The notes beneath the pieces are model-generated. The model saw nothing but the letters and a program-made list of their open reading frames with translations. It ran no database searches and was not told the DNA's origin. Below are positions 3,592-15,202 of a stretch of DNA of 64,000 nt, in pieces (position 1 is the stretch's first letter; the number at the start of each line of letters is the position of its first letter). Source of the stretch: Myxococcus guangdongensis (GTDB taxonomy: Bacteria; Myxococcota; Myxococcia; Myxococcales; Myxococcaceae); contig NZ_JAJVKW010000002.1 of the NCBI RefSeq assembly GCF_024198255.1, positions 1 to 64,000 on the forward strand. Reading direction: 5' to 3'. The translations under genes and the position numbers were made by a program.

Positions 3592-3753
3592 ATGACGACG
3601 TTGACGATGCGGACGAACCCGATGAAGCGCAGCAATCGCAACAGCCTCTGGTCCCAGTTCGACGCCGCCTCCTCGGCCCTCGCGAGCTTCGGCTCGAAGT
3701 CCAACATGGGATTTGGCCGCCTCCACGGTCTTCCGCCCGTACCCTCCTGCTGA
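3592..3753 (+). CDS. Small protein, 53 aa, paralogue of 12559-12717
   Basis: The ATG at 3592 follows a good ribosome-binding site (aaaggag). The start MTTLTMRTNPMKRSN is nearly the same as in the copy at 12559 (MTMLTMRTNPMKRSN), and the tail keeps LWSQF and PPVP. About two thirds of residues agree between copies, and reading frame, start, leader and end are all kept, which argues for translation. No signal peptide is seen; the N-terminus is basic. Function unknown. It lies upstream of a hairpin and of tRNA-Lys and tRNA-Asn in the same direction. Whether it acts as a protein or its leader acts as RNA cannot be decided here. Confidence 0.6.
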   Translation: MTTLTMRTNPMKRSNRNSLWSQFDAASSALASFGSKSNMGFGRLHGLPPVPSC

Positions 3754-3788
3754 AGCTCGCGCGCCGTTACCCAAGCGCCAAGCCACGC

Positions 3789-3823
3789 AGAGGCCGGGCT
3801 CCCATCCAGGGGACCCGGCCTCT
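3789..3823 (+). terminator. 10-bp hairpin after the small protein gene
   Basis: AGAGGCCGGG and CCCGGCCTCT are exact inverted repeats with a 15-nt loop, 35 bp after the small gene. The same hairpin is fully conserved in the second block (12753-12787). No T-run follows; it may be a processing or termination structure. Confidence 0.6.
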
Positions 3824-3962
3824 CGGCCTTCAGGGCTCCTCTTCTTCCACAAACATCCACGGCTCGGGAAGACACGTGGGCCTGTAGCACCCGAGCCTGA
3901 CAGGGCACATGCCCACACGCCAGAAGTTCGGCTCGCGCCCCGTACCGACAGCATCCAGGTCT

Positions 3963-3990
3963 CTGACAACTGAATCGTCGTGGTGAATGT
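3963..3990 (+). promoter_or_regulatory. Candidate promoter of the tRNA-Lys/Asn pair
   Basis: CTGACA (3963-3968), a 16-bp spacer and GAATGT (3985-3990) lie about 37 bp before tRNA-Lys. The stretch is kept unchanged before tRNA-Lys of the second block (12928-12955), which supports function. Confidence 0.45.
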
Positions 3991-4026
3991 CATACCGCCC
4001 GCGCGCATCGGGGCGGCAAGCAATCT

Positions 4027-4097
4027 GCCTCCGTAGCTCATTGGAAGAGCATCCGCCTCTTAAGCGGACGGCGAGGGTTCGAATCCCTCCGGAGGTA
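4027..4097 (+). tRNA. tRNA-Lys (CTT), copy 1
   Basis: Cloverleaf of 71 nt: acceptor GCCTCCG with CGGAGGT plus A, D stem GCTC/GAGC, anticodon stem TCCGC/GCGGA around loop CTCTTAA (anticodon CTT), T arm GAGGG-TTCGAAT-CCCTC. No CCA is encoded. Identical to the copy at 12992. Confidence 0.9.
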
Positions 4098-4119
4098 CTC
4101 ACAAGCAATCGCAGCACAT

Positions 4120-4191
4120 TCCCCGGTAGCTCAATGGCGGAGCAAGCGGCTGTTAACCGCGAGGCTGAGGGTTCGAGTCCCTCCTGGGGAG
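4120..4191 (+). tRNA. tRNA-Asn (GTT), copy 1
   Basis: Cloverleaf of 72 nt: acceptor TCCCCGG with CTGGGGA plus G, anticodon loop CTGTTAA (anticodon GTT), T loop TTCGAGT. The 27-43 pair is A-G. Compared with the copy at 13086, acceptor pair 2-71 differs by a paired change (C-G here, T-A there), so both copies seem to be under selection for structure. Confidence 0.9.
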
Positions 4192-4239
4192 CTGATTGAA
4201 CGGGCCCGCAAACTGGCAGGGCCCTTGCGGTTAACACGA

Positions 4240-12419: not shown

Positions 12420-12558
12420 GCGGATGGCGAGCGGCCGATGGCAGCAAGGGTGCCACCCGCCACTGGCGGGCGAACCACAGCAGCGAAGCTCAAATAATCG
12501 GGCCTTGTCAGGAACGAAAACCACCCGCCGTAGAGTTTCCCCGAAAGGAGCGGCGACC

Positions 12559-12752: not shown

Positions 12753-12787
12753 AGAGGCCGGGCTCCCATCCAGGGGACCCGGCCTCT
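12753..12787 (+). terminator. Conserved hairpin between small gene and tRNA array
   Basis: The 10-bp stem AGAGGCCGGG/CCCGGCCTCT is identical to that at 3789-3823. It separates the small protein gene from the tRNA promoter. Confidence 0.6.
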
Positions 12788-12927
12788 CGGCGTTCTGGGC
12801 CCCTCTTCTTCCGAAAAATCGAGCAGCCGGGAAGACGCGCGGGCCTGTAGCGCCCGAGCCCGACAGGGCACGTGGTCGCACGTGAGAAATCCCGTTCGAG
12901 CCTTCGTACCCGACAGCATCCAGGTCT

Positions 12928-12991: not shown

Positions 12992-13062
12992 GCCTCCGTA
13001 GCTCATTGGAAGAGCATCCGCCTCTTAAGCGGACGGCGAGGGTTCGAATCCCTCCGGAGGTA
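12992..13062 (+). tRNA. tRNA-Lys (CTT), copy 2
   Basis: Identical over 71 nt to 4027-4097; anticodon loop CTCTTAA. First tRNA of the array. Confidence 0.9.
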
Positions 13063-13085
13063 CTCACACAACAAACGCAGCACAT

Positions 13086-13157
13086 TTCCCGGTAGCTCAA
13101 TGGCGGAGCAGGCGGCTGTTAACCGCAAGGCTGAGGGTTCGAGTCCCTCCTGGGAAG
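13086..13157 (+). tRNA. tRNA-Asn (GTT), copy 2
   Basis: Acceptor TTCCCGG with CTGGGAA plus G; anticodon loop CTGTTAA. Relative to 4120-4191 the acceptor pair 2-71 changed from C-G to T-A on both sides, and 27-43 from A-G to G-A. Confidence 0.9.
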
Positions 13158-13167
13158 CTTCACATCT

Positions 13168-13240
13168 GCCGACCTGGCGTAGGTGGTCCGCGCGCCCGTC
13201 TGAAGAGCGGGAGGACTCGGTTCGATTCCGAGGGTCGGCA
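13168..13240 (+). tRNA. tRNA-Phe (GAA)
   Basis: 73 nt: acceptor GCCGACC with GGTCGGC plus A; D stem GCGT/GCGC; anticodon stem CCCGT/GCGGG around CTGAAGA (anticodon GAA); T arm CTCGG-TTCGATT-CCGAG. Position 8 is T, position 9 is G. The D arm is unlike ordinary tRNA-Phe. Confidence 0.75.
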
Positions 13241-13263
13241 CTCGCAGCACGTTTCATCTTCAT

Positions 13264-13331
13264 AGGCCGCGCTCCGGGAGCAGCTTGGAATCCAAATCCG
13301 AGCGTGCGGGGTTCAACTCCTCGGCGGCCTG
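13264..13331 (+). tRNA. tRNA-Trp-like (CCA) with minimal D arm
   Basis: Acceptor AGGCCGC with GCGGCCT is perfect. The anticodon stem TTGGA/TCCGA encloses ATCCAAA, giving anticodon CCA (Trp). The T arm is CGGGG-TTCAACT-CCTCG. The D arm is only GCTC-CGG-GAGC, with a 3-nt loop and no spacer nucleotides 8 and 9, so the core is 67 nt. The usual D-loop/T-loop contact through GG is hard to form. It may be a degraded gene or a specialised tRNA-like RNA. Confidence 0.6.
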
Positions 13332-13338
13332 TCTTCTT

Positions 13339-13412
13339 GCCCCTGTAGCTCAACTGGTAGCAGCACCGGTTTCGTAAACCGGGGGTTGTCGGTTCGAACC
13401 CGACCGGGGGCA
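13339..13412 (+). tRNA. tRNA-Thr (CGT)
   Basis: 74 nt: acceptor GCCCCTG with CGGGGGC plus A; anticodon stem CCGGT/ACCGG around TTCGTAA (anticodon CGT); T arm GTCGG-TTCGAAC-CCGAC. The D stem GCTC faces CAGC, leaving one C-C mismatch. Confidence 0.8.
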
Positions 13413-13433
13413 CTGTTTCACGCGAGTCATCAT

Positions 13434-13504
13434 GGGTCCGTAGCTCAATGGGAGAGCACTCGGTTTGCACCCGAGCGGTCCGGGTTCGAGTCCCGGCGGT
13501 TCCA
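13434..13504 (+). tRNA. tRNA-Ala (TGC)
   Basis: 71 nt: GGGTCCG with CGGTTCC plus A, containing one T-T mismatch at 4-69; D stem GCTC/GAGC; anticodon stem CTCGG/CCGAG around TTTGCAC (anticodon TGC); T arm CCGGG-TTCGAGT-CCCGG. G3-T70 is a G-U pair, the identity element of alanine tRNAs. Confidence 0.85.
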
Positions 13505-13510
13505 CTTCTT

Positions 13511-13584
13511 GCCCTTGTAGCTCAGTGGATGAGAGCGCACGGTTCCGAACCGTGAGGCCGCAGGTTCAATCCCTGCCAGGGGCA
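13511..13584 (+). tRNA. tRNA-Arg (CCG)
   Basis: 74 nt, well formed: GCCCTTG with CAGGGGC plus A, D stem GCTC/GAGC, anticodon stem CACGG/CCGTG around TTCCGAA (anticodon CCG), T arm GCAGG-TTCAATC-CCTGC. Confidence 0.85.
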
Positions 13585-13598
13585 CTGTTTCTCCTCAC

Positions 13599-13673
13599 GC
13601 TCCTGTAGCTCAGCGGAATCAGAGCACGCGCGTCCTAAGCGCAAGGTCGCAGGTTCGAATCCTGCCGGGAGCA
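13599..13673 (+). tRNA. tRNA-Arg (CCT)
   Basis: 75 nt: GCTCCTG with CGGGAGC plus A, D stem GCTC/GAGC, anticodon stem CGCGC/GCGCA around GTCCTAA (anticodon CCT), T arm GCAGG-TTCGAAT-CCTGC. The 27-43 pair is a C-A mismatch. Confidence 0.85.
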
Positions 13674-13694
13674 TCTGCGCGGTTCACTTCTTCT

Positions 13695-13765
13695 TGCGGT
13701 GTGGGGTCGGTGCCCCACTGGGCCTCATAAGCCCGGCCTCCAGGGTTCGACTCCCTGCTCCGCAA
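13695..13765 (+). tRNA. tRNA-Met-type (CAT)
   Basis: 71 nt: TGCGGTG with CTCCGCA (one T-T mismatch), compact D arm with a GGGG/CCCC stem and a short loop, anticodon stem TGGGC/GCCCG around CTCATAA (anticodon CAT), T arm CAGGG-TTCGACT-CCCTG. CAT could be Met or an Ile tRNA modified to read ATA. Short D loop is unusual. Confidence 0.7.
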
Positions 13766-13775
13766 CTCGTCTTTC

Positions 13776-13848
13776 GCACGCCGAGCCAGCTGGAGACGGC
13801 GACGGTCCCACACACCGTTCTCGCCGGGTTCGATCCCCGGGGCGTGCA
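13776..13848 (+). tRNA. tRNA-Val (CAC) with C33
   Basis: 73 nt: GCACGCC with GGCGTGC plus A; anticodon stem ACGGT/ACCGT around CCCACAC (anticodon CAC); T arm CCGGG-TTCGATC-CCCGG. Position 33 is C instead of the near-universal T, and position 8 is G. Stems are intact, so this is not random decay. Confidence 0.7.
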
Positions 13849-13866
13849 CTCTGTCCTCGAAGTCCT

Positions 13867-13940
13867 GCCGGTGTAGCCCAATAGGTAGAGGTGCCAGGTC
13901 GAGAACCTGGAGGTTGCGGGTTCGACTCCCGCCGCCGGCA
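13867..13940 (+). tRNA. tRNA-Leu-type (GAG), short variable loop, C33
   Basis: 74 nt: GCCGGTG with CGCCGGC plus A; anticodon stem CCAGG/CCTGG around TCGAGAA (anticodon GAG); T arm GCGGG-TTCGACT-CCCGC. Bacterial tRNA-Leu normally has a long variable arm; here it is only AGGTT. Position 33 is C. Charging identity is uncertain. Confidence 0.65.
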
Positions 13941-13981
13941 TTGTTGTCGTCGTCGCAGGTCAGCAGGAACTCCCGAAGTCC

Positions 13982-14055
13982 GTCCGCGTAGCCCAAACGG
14001 GAGAGGCCGCCGGCTCAAACCCGGCCCAGTGCGAGTTCGACTCTCGCCGCGGATA
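13982..14055 (+). tRNA. tRNA-Leu-type (CAA), short variable loop
   Basis: 74 nt: GTCCGCG with CGCGGAT plus A; D stem GCC/GGC; anticodon stem GCCGG/CCGGC around CTCAAAC (anticodon CAA); T arm GCGAG-TTCGACT-CTCGC. The variable loop is 5 nt (CCAGT) instead of the long arm expected for Leu. Confidence 0.7.
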
Positions 14056-14075
14056 CAAACGAAAGGCGTTGCGTC

Positions 14076-14783: not shown

Positions 14784-14869
14784 GGAAGACCGACGCCAGA
14801 GGCTGGCGGCCCGTTTCGAAAACGGTGCGGGTGCATGACGCGCTCGGGGTTCGAGTCCCCTGTCTTCCG
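14784..14869 (+). tRNA. tRNA-Ser (CGA)
   Basis: 86 nt: GGAAGAC with GTCTTCC plus G; D arm GCCAG-AGG-CTGGC with a tight loop; anticodon loop TTCGAAA (anticodon CGA) on stem CCGT/ACGG; long variable region as expected for Ser; T loop TTCGAGT. Confidence 0.75.
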
Positions 14870-14878
14870 CTGTCTCTT

Positions 14879-14963
14879 GGAGCATGCAGGCCGGGTGGCC
14901 GGCCGCCCGGCTGGAAATCGGGAGGGCCCTTCGGGGCTCGTGGTTCGACTCCACCCTGCTCCG
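14879..14963 (+). tRNA. tRNA-Ser (GGA)
   Basis: 85 nt: GGAGCAT with CTGCTCC plus G (last pair mismatched); anticodon stem CCCGG/TCGGG around CTGGAAA (anticodon GGA); variable arm GGGCCC-TTCG-GGGCTC; T arm GTGG-TTCGACT-CCAC. Class II, as expected for Ser. Confidence 0.8.
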
Positions 14964-14975
14964 GTCTGTCTCTTT

Positions 14976-15063
14976 GGAAGTTGGACTGGCGATGGCGCCA
15001 GGCCCCGCTGCTACCGGGTGCGAGCCGGCCTTCCGGCTTGGGGTTCGAGTCCTCCGACTTCCG
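14976..15063 (+). tRNA. tRNA-Ser (GCT)
   Basis: 88 nt: GGAAGTT with GACTTCC plus G; anticodon stem CCCG/CGGG around CTGCTAC (anticodon GCT); long variable arm GAGCCGG-CCTT-CCGGCTT; T loop TTCGAGT. Last tRNA of the array, 140 bp before the Clp-RF fusion gene. Confidence 0.8.
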
Positions 15064-15202
15064 CTGCCACACCCGCCCACCCTGGGTCCGGGCTCCGCTC
15101 GCACAGGCGGGCCTGTTGCCGGCCCCTGGCCGGGATTGCGCGCTCACCTCGACGGTTCAGCGGTTAGAGTGCGTGCTCCGGCGAGGGGGCGGTTGACGAG
15201 AC

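Follow-up and report, generated by a model that had tools for sequence, protein, structure and literature searches.

Two tRNA genes with leucine anticodons, tRNA-Leu(GAG) and tRNA-Leu(CAA), lie close together in Myxococcus guangdongensis and lack the long variable arm of class II tRNAs, which raises the question of how they are charged and what purpose they serve. The window analysed here is the whole stretch of 64,000 nt (contig NZ_JAJVKW010000002.1 of assembly GCF_024198255.1, positions 1 to 64,000 of the forward strand). A preliminary description of this DNA held that both genes have intact stems and variable loops of 5 nt, and offered two options: charging by a synthetase other than LeuRS (miscoding or reassignment), or no use of these tRNAs in ordinary elongation. 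The genome (11.2 Mb, 75 Rfam tRNA matches) contains a full ordinary tRNA set, as read by ARAGORN on the stretches covering the Rfam matches, and this set includes five class II tRNA-Leu (CAA, CAG, GAG, TAA, TAG). Beside it is a second, "shadow" set, to which the two genes belong as part of a cluster designated array A (Table 1).

Table 1. Array A, its neighbours and related loci in M. guangdongensis. Positions refer to the window unless a contig or locus is named.
Feature	Position	Strand	Remarks
Second partial copy of the array	3592-4192	+	Leader ORF 3592-3753, hairpin 3792-3820
tRNA-Lys(CTT), second partial copy	4027-4098	+	
tRNA-Asn(GTT), second partial copy	4120-4192	+	
Conserved box GTCAGG..GAAAA..CACCCGCCGTAGA	12507-12534	+	Upstream of array; promoter-like by position only
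Leader ORF, 52 aa	12559-12717	+	Shine-Dalgarno-like AAAGGAGCGG
GC-rich leader hairpin	12756-12784	+	-28.6 kcal/mol (43-nt segment folded); possible attenuator
Array A, upstream part	12992-13849	+	ARAGORN/Rfam calls, except Trp-like gene
tRNA-Lys(CTT)	from 12992	+	
tRNA-Asn(GTT)	from 13086	+	
tRNA-Phe(GAA)	from 13168	+	
Trp-CCA-like gene	about 13264-13331	+	Identified by eye; no ARAGORN or Rfam call
tRNA-Thr(CGT)	from 13339	+	
tRNA-Ala(TGC)	from 13434	+	
tRNA-Arg(CCG)	from 13511	+	
tRNA-Arg(CCT)	from 13599	+	
tRNA-Met(CAT)	from 13695	+	
tRNA-Val(CAC)	from 13776	+	
tRNA-Leu(GAG), class I	13867-13940	+	5-nt variable loop, C33, A73, A15-U48, A20a
tRNA-Leu(CAA), class I	13982-14055	+	5-nt variable loop, U33, A73, A15-U48, A20a, G1-U72
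HNH endonuclease ORF, 180 aa	14076-14618	+	Phage and viral-contig relatives adjoin tRNA-Leu genes
Three class II tRNA-Ser	14784-15064	+	Long variable arms kept
Ser-CGA-like gene	14784-14868	+	No ARAGORN call; tRNA-Sec model 37.5 bits, below gathering score
tRNA-Ser(GGA)	14879-14963	+	Class II
tRNA-Ser(GCT)	14976-15064	+	Class II
ClpA/B-like double AAA ATPase fused to RF2-like domain without GGQ (Clp-RF2), 939 aa	15203-18022	+	
Array B	contig 11		Gly-GCC (twice), Ala-CGC, Leu-CAG, Pro-GGG, Pro-CGG, Asp-GTC, Ala-GGC, Glu-CTC, Arg-GCG, Val-GAC
Satellites	contig 15; window 4027-4192		Contig 15: Tyr, Ile, His, Gly-CCC, Gln-CTG
Shadow tRNAs without U33	13776-13849; L085 9364-9437, 11279-11437, 11830-11998		

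The structural part of the preliminary description is borne out by ARAGORN, Rfam and covariation alike. Both genes are called by ARAGORN and by the Rfam model RF00005, whose covariance-model scores are 60.5 bits for tRNA-Leu(GAG) and 45.3 bits for tRNA-Leu(CAA), and their variable loops read AGGUU and CCAGU, respectively. The sole mispaired stem position in either tRNA is C13.A22, which is found in 30/30 distinct aligned relatives from Myxococcaceae and matches in geometry the 13.22 mispair of class II tRNA-Leu in the same genome; the remaining stem pairs are intact. Both tRNAs thus combine a leucine anticodon with the absence of the class II arm, and refolding brought no long variable arm to light in the minimum-energy folds of the short-arm tRNA-Leu. 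For Leu(CAA) and the Leu(CAG) of array B the cloverleaf rests on tRNA models and covariation, because their unconstrained folds are not clean cloverleaves. Across 30 distinct short-arm shadow tRNA-Leu sequences from Myxococcaceae, 99.5% of 600 pair cells hold standard pairs and both sides vary in 13 of 20 pairs, these cells not being independent because the rows are three paralogous isoacceptors. Neither value was attained in any of 500 shuffles, and structures slid along the same sequences were 36-48% paired.

In E. coli tRNA-Leu, A73 is crucial while neither the anticodon nor the long arm is; A15-U48, G18G19 and A20a are essential for LeuRS, and variants without the anticodon arm and the long arm are still active (PMC9976931). 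Human mitochondrial tRNA-Leu(UUR) is likewise charged without a long arm (PMC9976931), and SerRS is reported to require one (PMC9976931, PMC7609411). Four determinants (A73, A14, A15-U48 and A20a), taken from E. coli and mitochondrial LeuRS requirements rather than those of Myxococcus, were scored in the 77 distinct ARAGORN tRNAs of the genome. All four are present in 8/8 tRNAs with a leucine anticodon (five class II, three class I) vs 1/69 others (Fisher 4e-10), the sole non-leucine case being the shadow tRNA-Thr(CGT). The same four occur in 29/30 distinct shadow tRNA-Leu from Myxococcaceae, the one miss (Leu-GAG of locus L032) arising because GGG confuses the parser. A second LeuRS was considered and rejected, since the LeuRS profile gave a single match over cut-off in the genome and its ten other rows fell below.

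These data bear on the proposal that a synthetase other than LeuRS charges the two tRNAs, so that CUC or UUG codons would at times specify a different amino acid. The missing arm speaks in its favour, and the leucine-type core of the shadow tRNA-Thr(CGT) makes cross-charging between LeuRS and ThrRS conceivable. Both tRNAs keep every scored LeuRS determinant, however, and E. coli LeuRS dispenses with arm and anticodon; ordinary class II tRNA-Leu exist for the same codons, and leucine anticodons occur in 129/131 members of the viral motif family described below (among the matches listed). Miscoding is therefore very improbable, and this part of the preliminary description is not supported. Instead, the host LeuRS would charge the shadow tRNA-Leu with leucine, in which case CUC/CUU and UUG would be decoded as leucine. 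The shadow tRNA-Thr(CGT) (window 13339-13413) has A73 and the full leucine-type core (A15-U48, A20a), and the ordinary tRNA-Thr(CGT) has U73; the former is a candidate for dual Thr/Leu charging, judging by its sequence.

Loss of the arm is specific to one isotype. In the Myxococcaceae arrays class I molecules make up 30/30 tRNA-Leu, 0/20 tRNA-Ser and 0/16 tRNA-Tyr, and the variable regions of two parsed shadow tRNA-Ser (16 and 19 nt) and of the shadow tRNA-Tyr (16 nt) are long. Given the differing requirements of LeuRS and SerRS, the arm is missing from the isotype whose synthetase is known to do without it and present in the one whose synthetase is known to require it. The anticodon loop of tRNA-Leu(GAG) is also unusual, in that position 33 is C and not U. 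C33 is found in 10/11 distinct Leu(GAG) sequences of the alignment, as well as in the Leu-GAG of Virus Rctr197k; weaker decoding is expected from it, and it is the best argument against efficient ordinary decoding by Leu-GAG. In several other shadow tRNAs (Val, Asp, Ala-GGC, Gly), C33 or A33 replaces U33.

Array A is redundant with the chromosomal tRNA set, has an embedded HNH gene and is linked to phages or plasmids. The threshold for a tRNA array unit is about 20 genes; in the window ARAGORN finds 11 at 12992-14056 and two further ones at 14879-15064, and it does call the counterpart of the Trp-CCA-like gene in a relative (G003). Arrays A and B are complementary in their anticodons, array B and the satellites supplying most of the other NNC/NNG anticodons. 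By hand count, which takes in the uncalled Trp-like gene and the below-threshold Ser-CGA-like gene, the shadow set has 30 anticodons, 29 of them with G34 or C34, of 31 such sense anticodons; shadow tRNAs for Cys-GCA and Thr-GGT were not found in this genome. The bias towards C34/G34 is strong: of the 44 ordinary anticodons 14 have A34 or U34, and a draw of 29 that takes in at most 1 of these has a hypergeometric probability of 2.7e-8 (post hoc). Avoidance of U34 as the cause of the bias was considered and set aside. Exceptions with A34 or U34 are Ala-TGC in M. guangdongensis, Pro-TGG and Glu-TTC in genome G002, and Arg-ACG in both Archangium loci. The tRNA-Arg(GCG) of array B (L085 9455-9530, contig 11) would read CGC without inosine; the anticodon GCG is rare in bacteria. 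Degenerate tRNA-Tyr-like remnants, recognised by eye and in part overlapped by sequence matches, lie in two array copies at about 12830-12910 and 3860-3945 of the window. The intact shadow tRNA-Tyr is located on contig 15, an arrangement that looks like a set divided among loci.

Arrays A and B, or pieces of them, were read in the genomes of six relatives. In relatives, array A comprises up to 20 ARAGORN tRNAs and lies upstream of the same Clp-RF2 gene; in M. eversor (L032) the 20 genes fit within 2.7 kb. A strain of M. xanthus (L037) has a reduced array A of 7 ARAGORN tRNAs, including a class I Leu-GAG, and 0-2 tRNAs are left beside the Clp-RF2 gene in Corallococcus loci. Array B has matches in both searched Archangium genomes, and its Leu-CAG and Pro-GGG parts match in both Corallococcus genomes. 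An exact short-arm motif, which fits Leu-GAG and Leu-CAG and misses the Leu-CAA type, is found in 29 of 146 sampled Myxococcota genomes: 25/25 of the genus, 2/13 and 2/4 in two other genera of the family, and 0/81 outside the family. The reversed pattern, used as a control, has no match in the sampled Myxococcota genomes. Downstream of the array in Myxococcaceae, the Clp-RF2 gene is retained where the array has shrunk, and the GGQ loop is missing from its RF2-like C-terminus in all five aligned sequences (the window and four relatives). The gene is a neighbour of array A, and a functional partnership between the two is putative. A shortage of NNA codons in the Clp-RF2 or HNH gene was considered and set aside as not distinctive.

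The array has the layout of a leader-peptide operon, namely a short ORF, then a hairpin, then the genes. A short ORF behind AAAGGAGCGG occurs in 47 copies of 32-62 codons in 37 of 43 searched Myxococcaceae loci, frequently with a TSPMN-like motif. The AAAGGAGCGG motif is located no more than 700 nt upstream of 39/43 same-strand clusters of at least two tRNAs, from both arrays; the four clusters without it are those of L031, of L052 (where a near-match stands with the hairpin) and of L054 (which has the hairpin stem alone), and the second one of L127. The stem start GGCCGGG(C)TCCC follows 44/47 leaders within 200 nt, most commonly at a distance of 38 nt, and is absent after three (one in L043, two in L128). 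The energies of the folded segments lie at about -26 to -30 kcal/mol; the three copies that depart from this lack the far arm (the second cluster of array B in this genome, its counterpart in G003, and one in G009). Genome-wide, the full hairpin is found at 4 places and the conserved upstream box at 4 sites, in each case preceding shadow tRNAs. No sigma-70-type match was found at the box. The Gly-CCC pair on contig 15 has the box and lacks the leader ORF. The hairpin is not called a terminator and departs from the terminator consensus; its position with the leader ORF before shadow tRNAs suggests that the two act by attenuation.

The array could also be a decaying relic, a neutral phage remnant without present function. 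Corallococcus arrays are reduced, some tRNAs are missed by ARAGORN, and fragmented array copies are present in M. guangdongensis itself, all of which would agree with decay. Against this, the stems are intact and covary strongly, the motif occurs in every sampled genome of the genus, two arrays have complementary anticodons, and the leader precedes nearly all clusters of both. A relic is accordingly unlikely.

The HNH gene bears on the origin of array A. Among named phages, its best matches are in Virus Rctr197k (48.3% identity, 99% covered) and Myxococcus phage Mx1 (45.8%, 97% covered). In Mx1 the HNH gene is located between Leu-TAA and Leu-CAA; the Rctr197k gene comes immediately after Leu-CAA, and a Leu-GAG is found upstream. 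The variable loop of the Mx1 tRNAs measures 5 nt in Leu-TAA and Leu-CAA and 6 nt in Leu-GAG, and these three carry all four determinants; the Leu-TAG of Mx1 is class II. The tRNA region of Mx1 also has annotations for a TROVE-domain (Ro-like) protein and a peptidyl-tRNA hydrolase (L158 1873-3522 and 4317-4577). ARAGORN finds tRNAs around the HNH gene in five of seven named phages (Mx1, Rctr197k, Mimi, S-CBWM1 and Tunturi_5) and none around it in RHph_TM21B and Mareelih; among the seven, a class I tRNA-Leu stands directly beside the HNH gene only in Mx1 and Rctr197k. Of three plasmid matches to the HNH gene, those of Sphingomonas and Acaryochloris have no tRNA array, and that of Tolypothrix is followed by an array of 21 tRNAs, in which Leu-TAA is class I and has the four determinants. 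In this plasmid (L161 6001-10330) the HNH gene is directly upstream of the 21 ARAGORN genes, which are absent from the PLSDB gene table.

A scan for closer HNH relatives in viral contigs returned 18 loci. Viral contig L315 (HNH 64% identical) has the order Arg-CCG, Arg-CCT, Leu-GAG, Leu-CAG, Leu-CAA, HNH, Ser-CGA, Ser-GCT, and L316 (61%) has Leu-GAG, Leu-TAG, Leu-CAA, HNH, Ser-GCT; the window reads Arg-CCG, Arg-CCT, Met, Val, Leu-GAG, Leu-CAA, HNH and three Ser. Based on this synteny, array A very likely descends from a virus. In L317 (HNH 54%), no tRNA-Leu is present among the tRNAs near the HNH gene. At this one syntenic place the long arm is variably present: L316 has three class II tRNA-Leu, L314 has two class II and one class I, and L315 has a class II Leu-GAG beside two class I Leu.

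To gauge how common the short-arm state is in viral DNA, viral contigs were searched with a D-arm motif that contains A14, A15, G18G19 and A20a and excludes residues 48 and 73 and the anticodon. It matched at least 120 stretches at class I spacing vs 19 at class II spacing; two of the 19 are loci already in the class I list, giving 137 loci in total. Among the matches listed, 132 class I matches were re-found in these loci, with 131 called as tRNAs by ARAGORN and 122 distinct; the 131 comprise 129 with a leucine anticodon, 131 with A73, 130 with A15-U48 and 129 with U33. The 178/206 class I tRNAs in this motif-selected sample were rejected as a frequency, being biased by the selection. A sample independent of leucine was therefore drawn by a tRNA-Gly(TCC) motif (at least 120 viral stretches). 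Among the matches listed, 23/63 distinct tRNA-Leu are class I (loop of at most 8 nt) vs 1/83 tRNA-Ser and tRNA-Tyr (Fisher 4e-9, a statistic that ignores phage kinship and skips 7 tRNAs without a readable anticodon). The single Ser/Tyr exception has U73, and 29/29 viral tRNA-Tyr keep the arm. All four determinants are present in 17/23 class I vs 39/40 class II tRNA-Leu of the Gly-drawn matches listed. In named phages picked without regard to Leu similarity, 8/15 tRNA-Leu and 1/15 tRNA-Ser and tRNA-Tyr are class I; the tRNA-Leu of T4 and T5 are class II. The HNH-neighbour viral sample (class I in 4/12 Leu vs 0/9 Ser and Tyr) was too small to serve as a frequency. The class I state is thus common in viral tRNA-Leu, at about a third in the sampled viral DNA.

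The best reading, to which we give a probability of about 0.62, is that the two genes encode domesticated, LeuRS-chargeable class I tRNA-Leu of phage type that form part of a conditional backup set. It builds on the observed conservation, leucine determinants, viral kinship and leader. These tRNAs duplicate a full ordinary set, the phage-related arrays stand behind a dedicated leader, and Leu(GAG) has C33, so that they probably serve under particular conditions and not in housekeeping. To that extent the preliminary suggestion that these tRNAs are unused in ordinary elongation is partly right. A chargeable class I tRNA-Leu of viral origin, which that description missed, fits best. The shadow set would be expressed when translation is damaged. 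Its altered tRNA bodies, with the missing leucine arm above all and anticodon-loop changes such as C33, would make them hard to cleave for tRNA nucleases acting on the variable or the anticodon loop, and the C33 of Leu-GAG may be a loop change of the kind that evades anticodon nucleases. The long arm would be droppable in tRNA-Leu because LeuRS does without it; SerRS needs it, and the shadow tRNA-Ser retain it.

Several observations count against parts of this reading. The case for nuclease evasion is indirect: the documented target of variable-loop cleavage is tRNA-Tyr, yet viral tRNA-Tyr keep their arm, and Septu cuts the tRNA-Tyr of phage T6 as well, both of which argue against it. The full set of four determinants is also less regular in the unselected viral class I tRNA-Leu (17/23) than in the class II ones (39/40). 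The arm is not uniformly lost at the syntenic place or in T4 and T5, and there are signs of array decay, such as the Trp and Ser-CGA genes uncalled by ARAGORN and the reduction in Corallococcus. A bolder and more doubtful scenario is that viruses repeatedly shed the tRNA-Leu arm against variable-arm nucleases, and that Myxococcaceae domesticated such an array as an inducible, nuclease-resistant set for C- and G-ending codons, whose leader peptide and hairpin would sense stalled translation. The tRNAs might alternatively be decoys that absorb tRNA nucleases or modification enzymes instead of decoding, as their wide anticodon range, odd anticodon loops (C33 or A33 in several) and mobile-element origin would allow; a decoy would need neither the kept synthetase determinants nor long arms in Ser but not in Leu, and we consider this quite unlikely.

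A tRNA that is class II in textbooks thus frequently takes the class I form in viral arrays and arrays derived from viruses, in an isotype whose synthetase tolerates it, and the arms race over tRNA cleavage gains a simple structural prediction. The M. xanthus strain with its reduced array A offers a practical host in which to ask about the function of tRNA arrays. In the literature covered, from which subscription journals are largely missing, no account was found of class I tRNA-Leu as a viral family or of the Myxococcus arrays.

Phage tRNAs have been described as evading nucleases by altered loops or high dosage (PMC10264068, PMC11555353, PMC13096335), and loop mutations were proposed to let them evade anticodon nucleases (PMC10264068). 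PtuAB systems cleave the variable loop of tRNA-Tyr (PMC10264068, PMC11555353, PMC13096335); Septu also cuts the tRNA-Tyr of phage T6, which escapes by dosage (PMC11555353 / PMC13096335). As far as their main texts go, these papers differ from the present case in dealing with anticodon-loop changes or tRNA-Tyr and not with the tRNA-Leu arm: the term "tRNALeu" is absent from all three main texts, and "tRNA-Leu" appears once, in PMC10264068, on anticodon avoidance. Class I mitochondrial tRNA-Leu likewise have no long arm and are charged via A73 and A14 (PMC9976931), but they are organellar and presumably lost the arm independently. The trn operon of Anabaena is a second, normally silent tRNA set that translation stress induces and that is of use during such stress (PMC10272220). 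It resembles the proposed Myxococcus set in being second and conditional, and differs in its TrcR repressor and megaplasmid location and in that the passages describing it report no leader ORF (PMC10272220); the Tolypothrix plasmid array with its class I Leu-TAA is a related cyanobacterial case.

Further close parallels are the tRNA arrays of mycobacteria and of their phages and plasmids. A link between HNH genes, GOLLD RNA and large tRNA clusters has been noted (PMC9569102). In the Mycobacterium mucogenicum clade, a cluster tRNA-Leu(TAG) has a short variable loop and, as here, belongs to an HNH-containing and probably phage-derived cluster; the remark, a single sentence on one tRNA, gives no identity determinants, viral family or frequency (PMC6582537). 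More generally, an HNH gene is embedded in these arrays, whose tRNA genes are dense and redundant (Morgado and Vicente 2018, PMC5966550; Yano 2026, PMC12803027). The mycobacterial ones have sequences unlike the chromosomal tRNAs, with differences noted in the D, anticodon and variable arms, a proposed phage or plasmid origin and, in some, RF-1, Pth or tmRNA (PMC5966550, PMC12803027). The Myxococcus arrays share with them the redundant tRNA set, the HNH gene inside it and the phage link, and resemble them in tRNA density. They differ, as far as the mycobacterial arrays are described in these sources, in being chromosomal and genus-wide, in forming two complementary arrays with nearly all anticodons starting with G34 or C34, and in standing mostly behind a shared leader ORF and hairpin.
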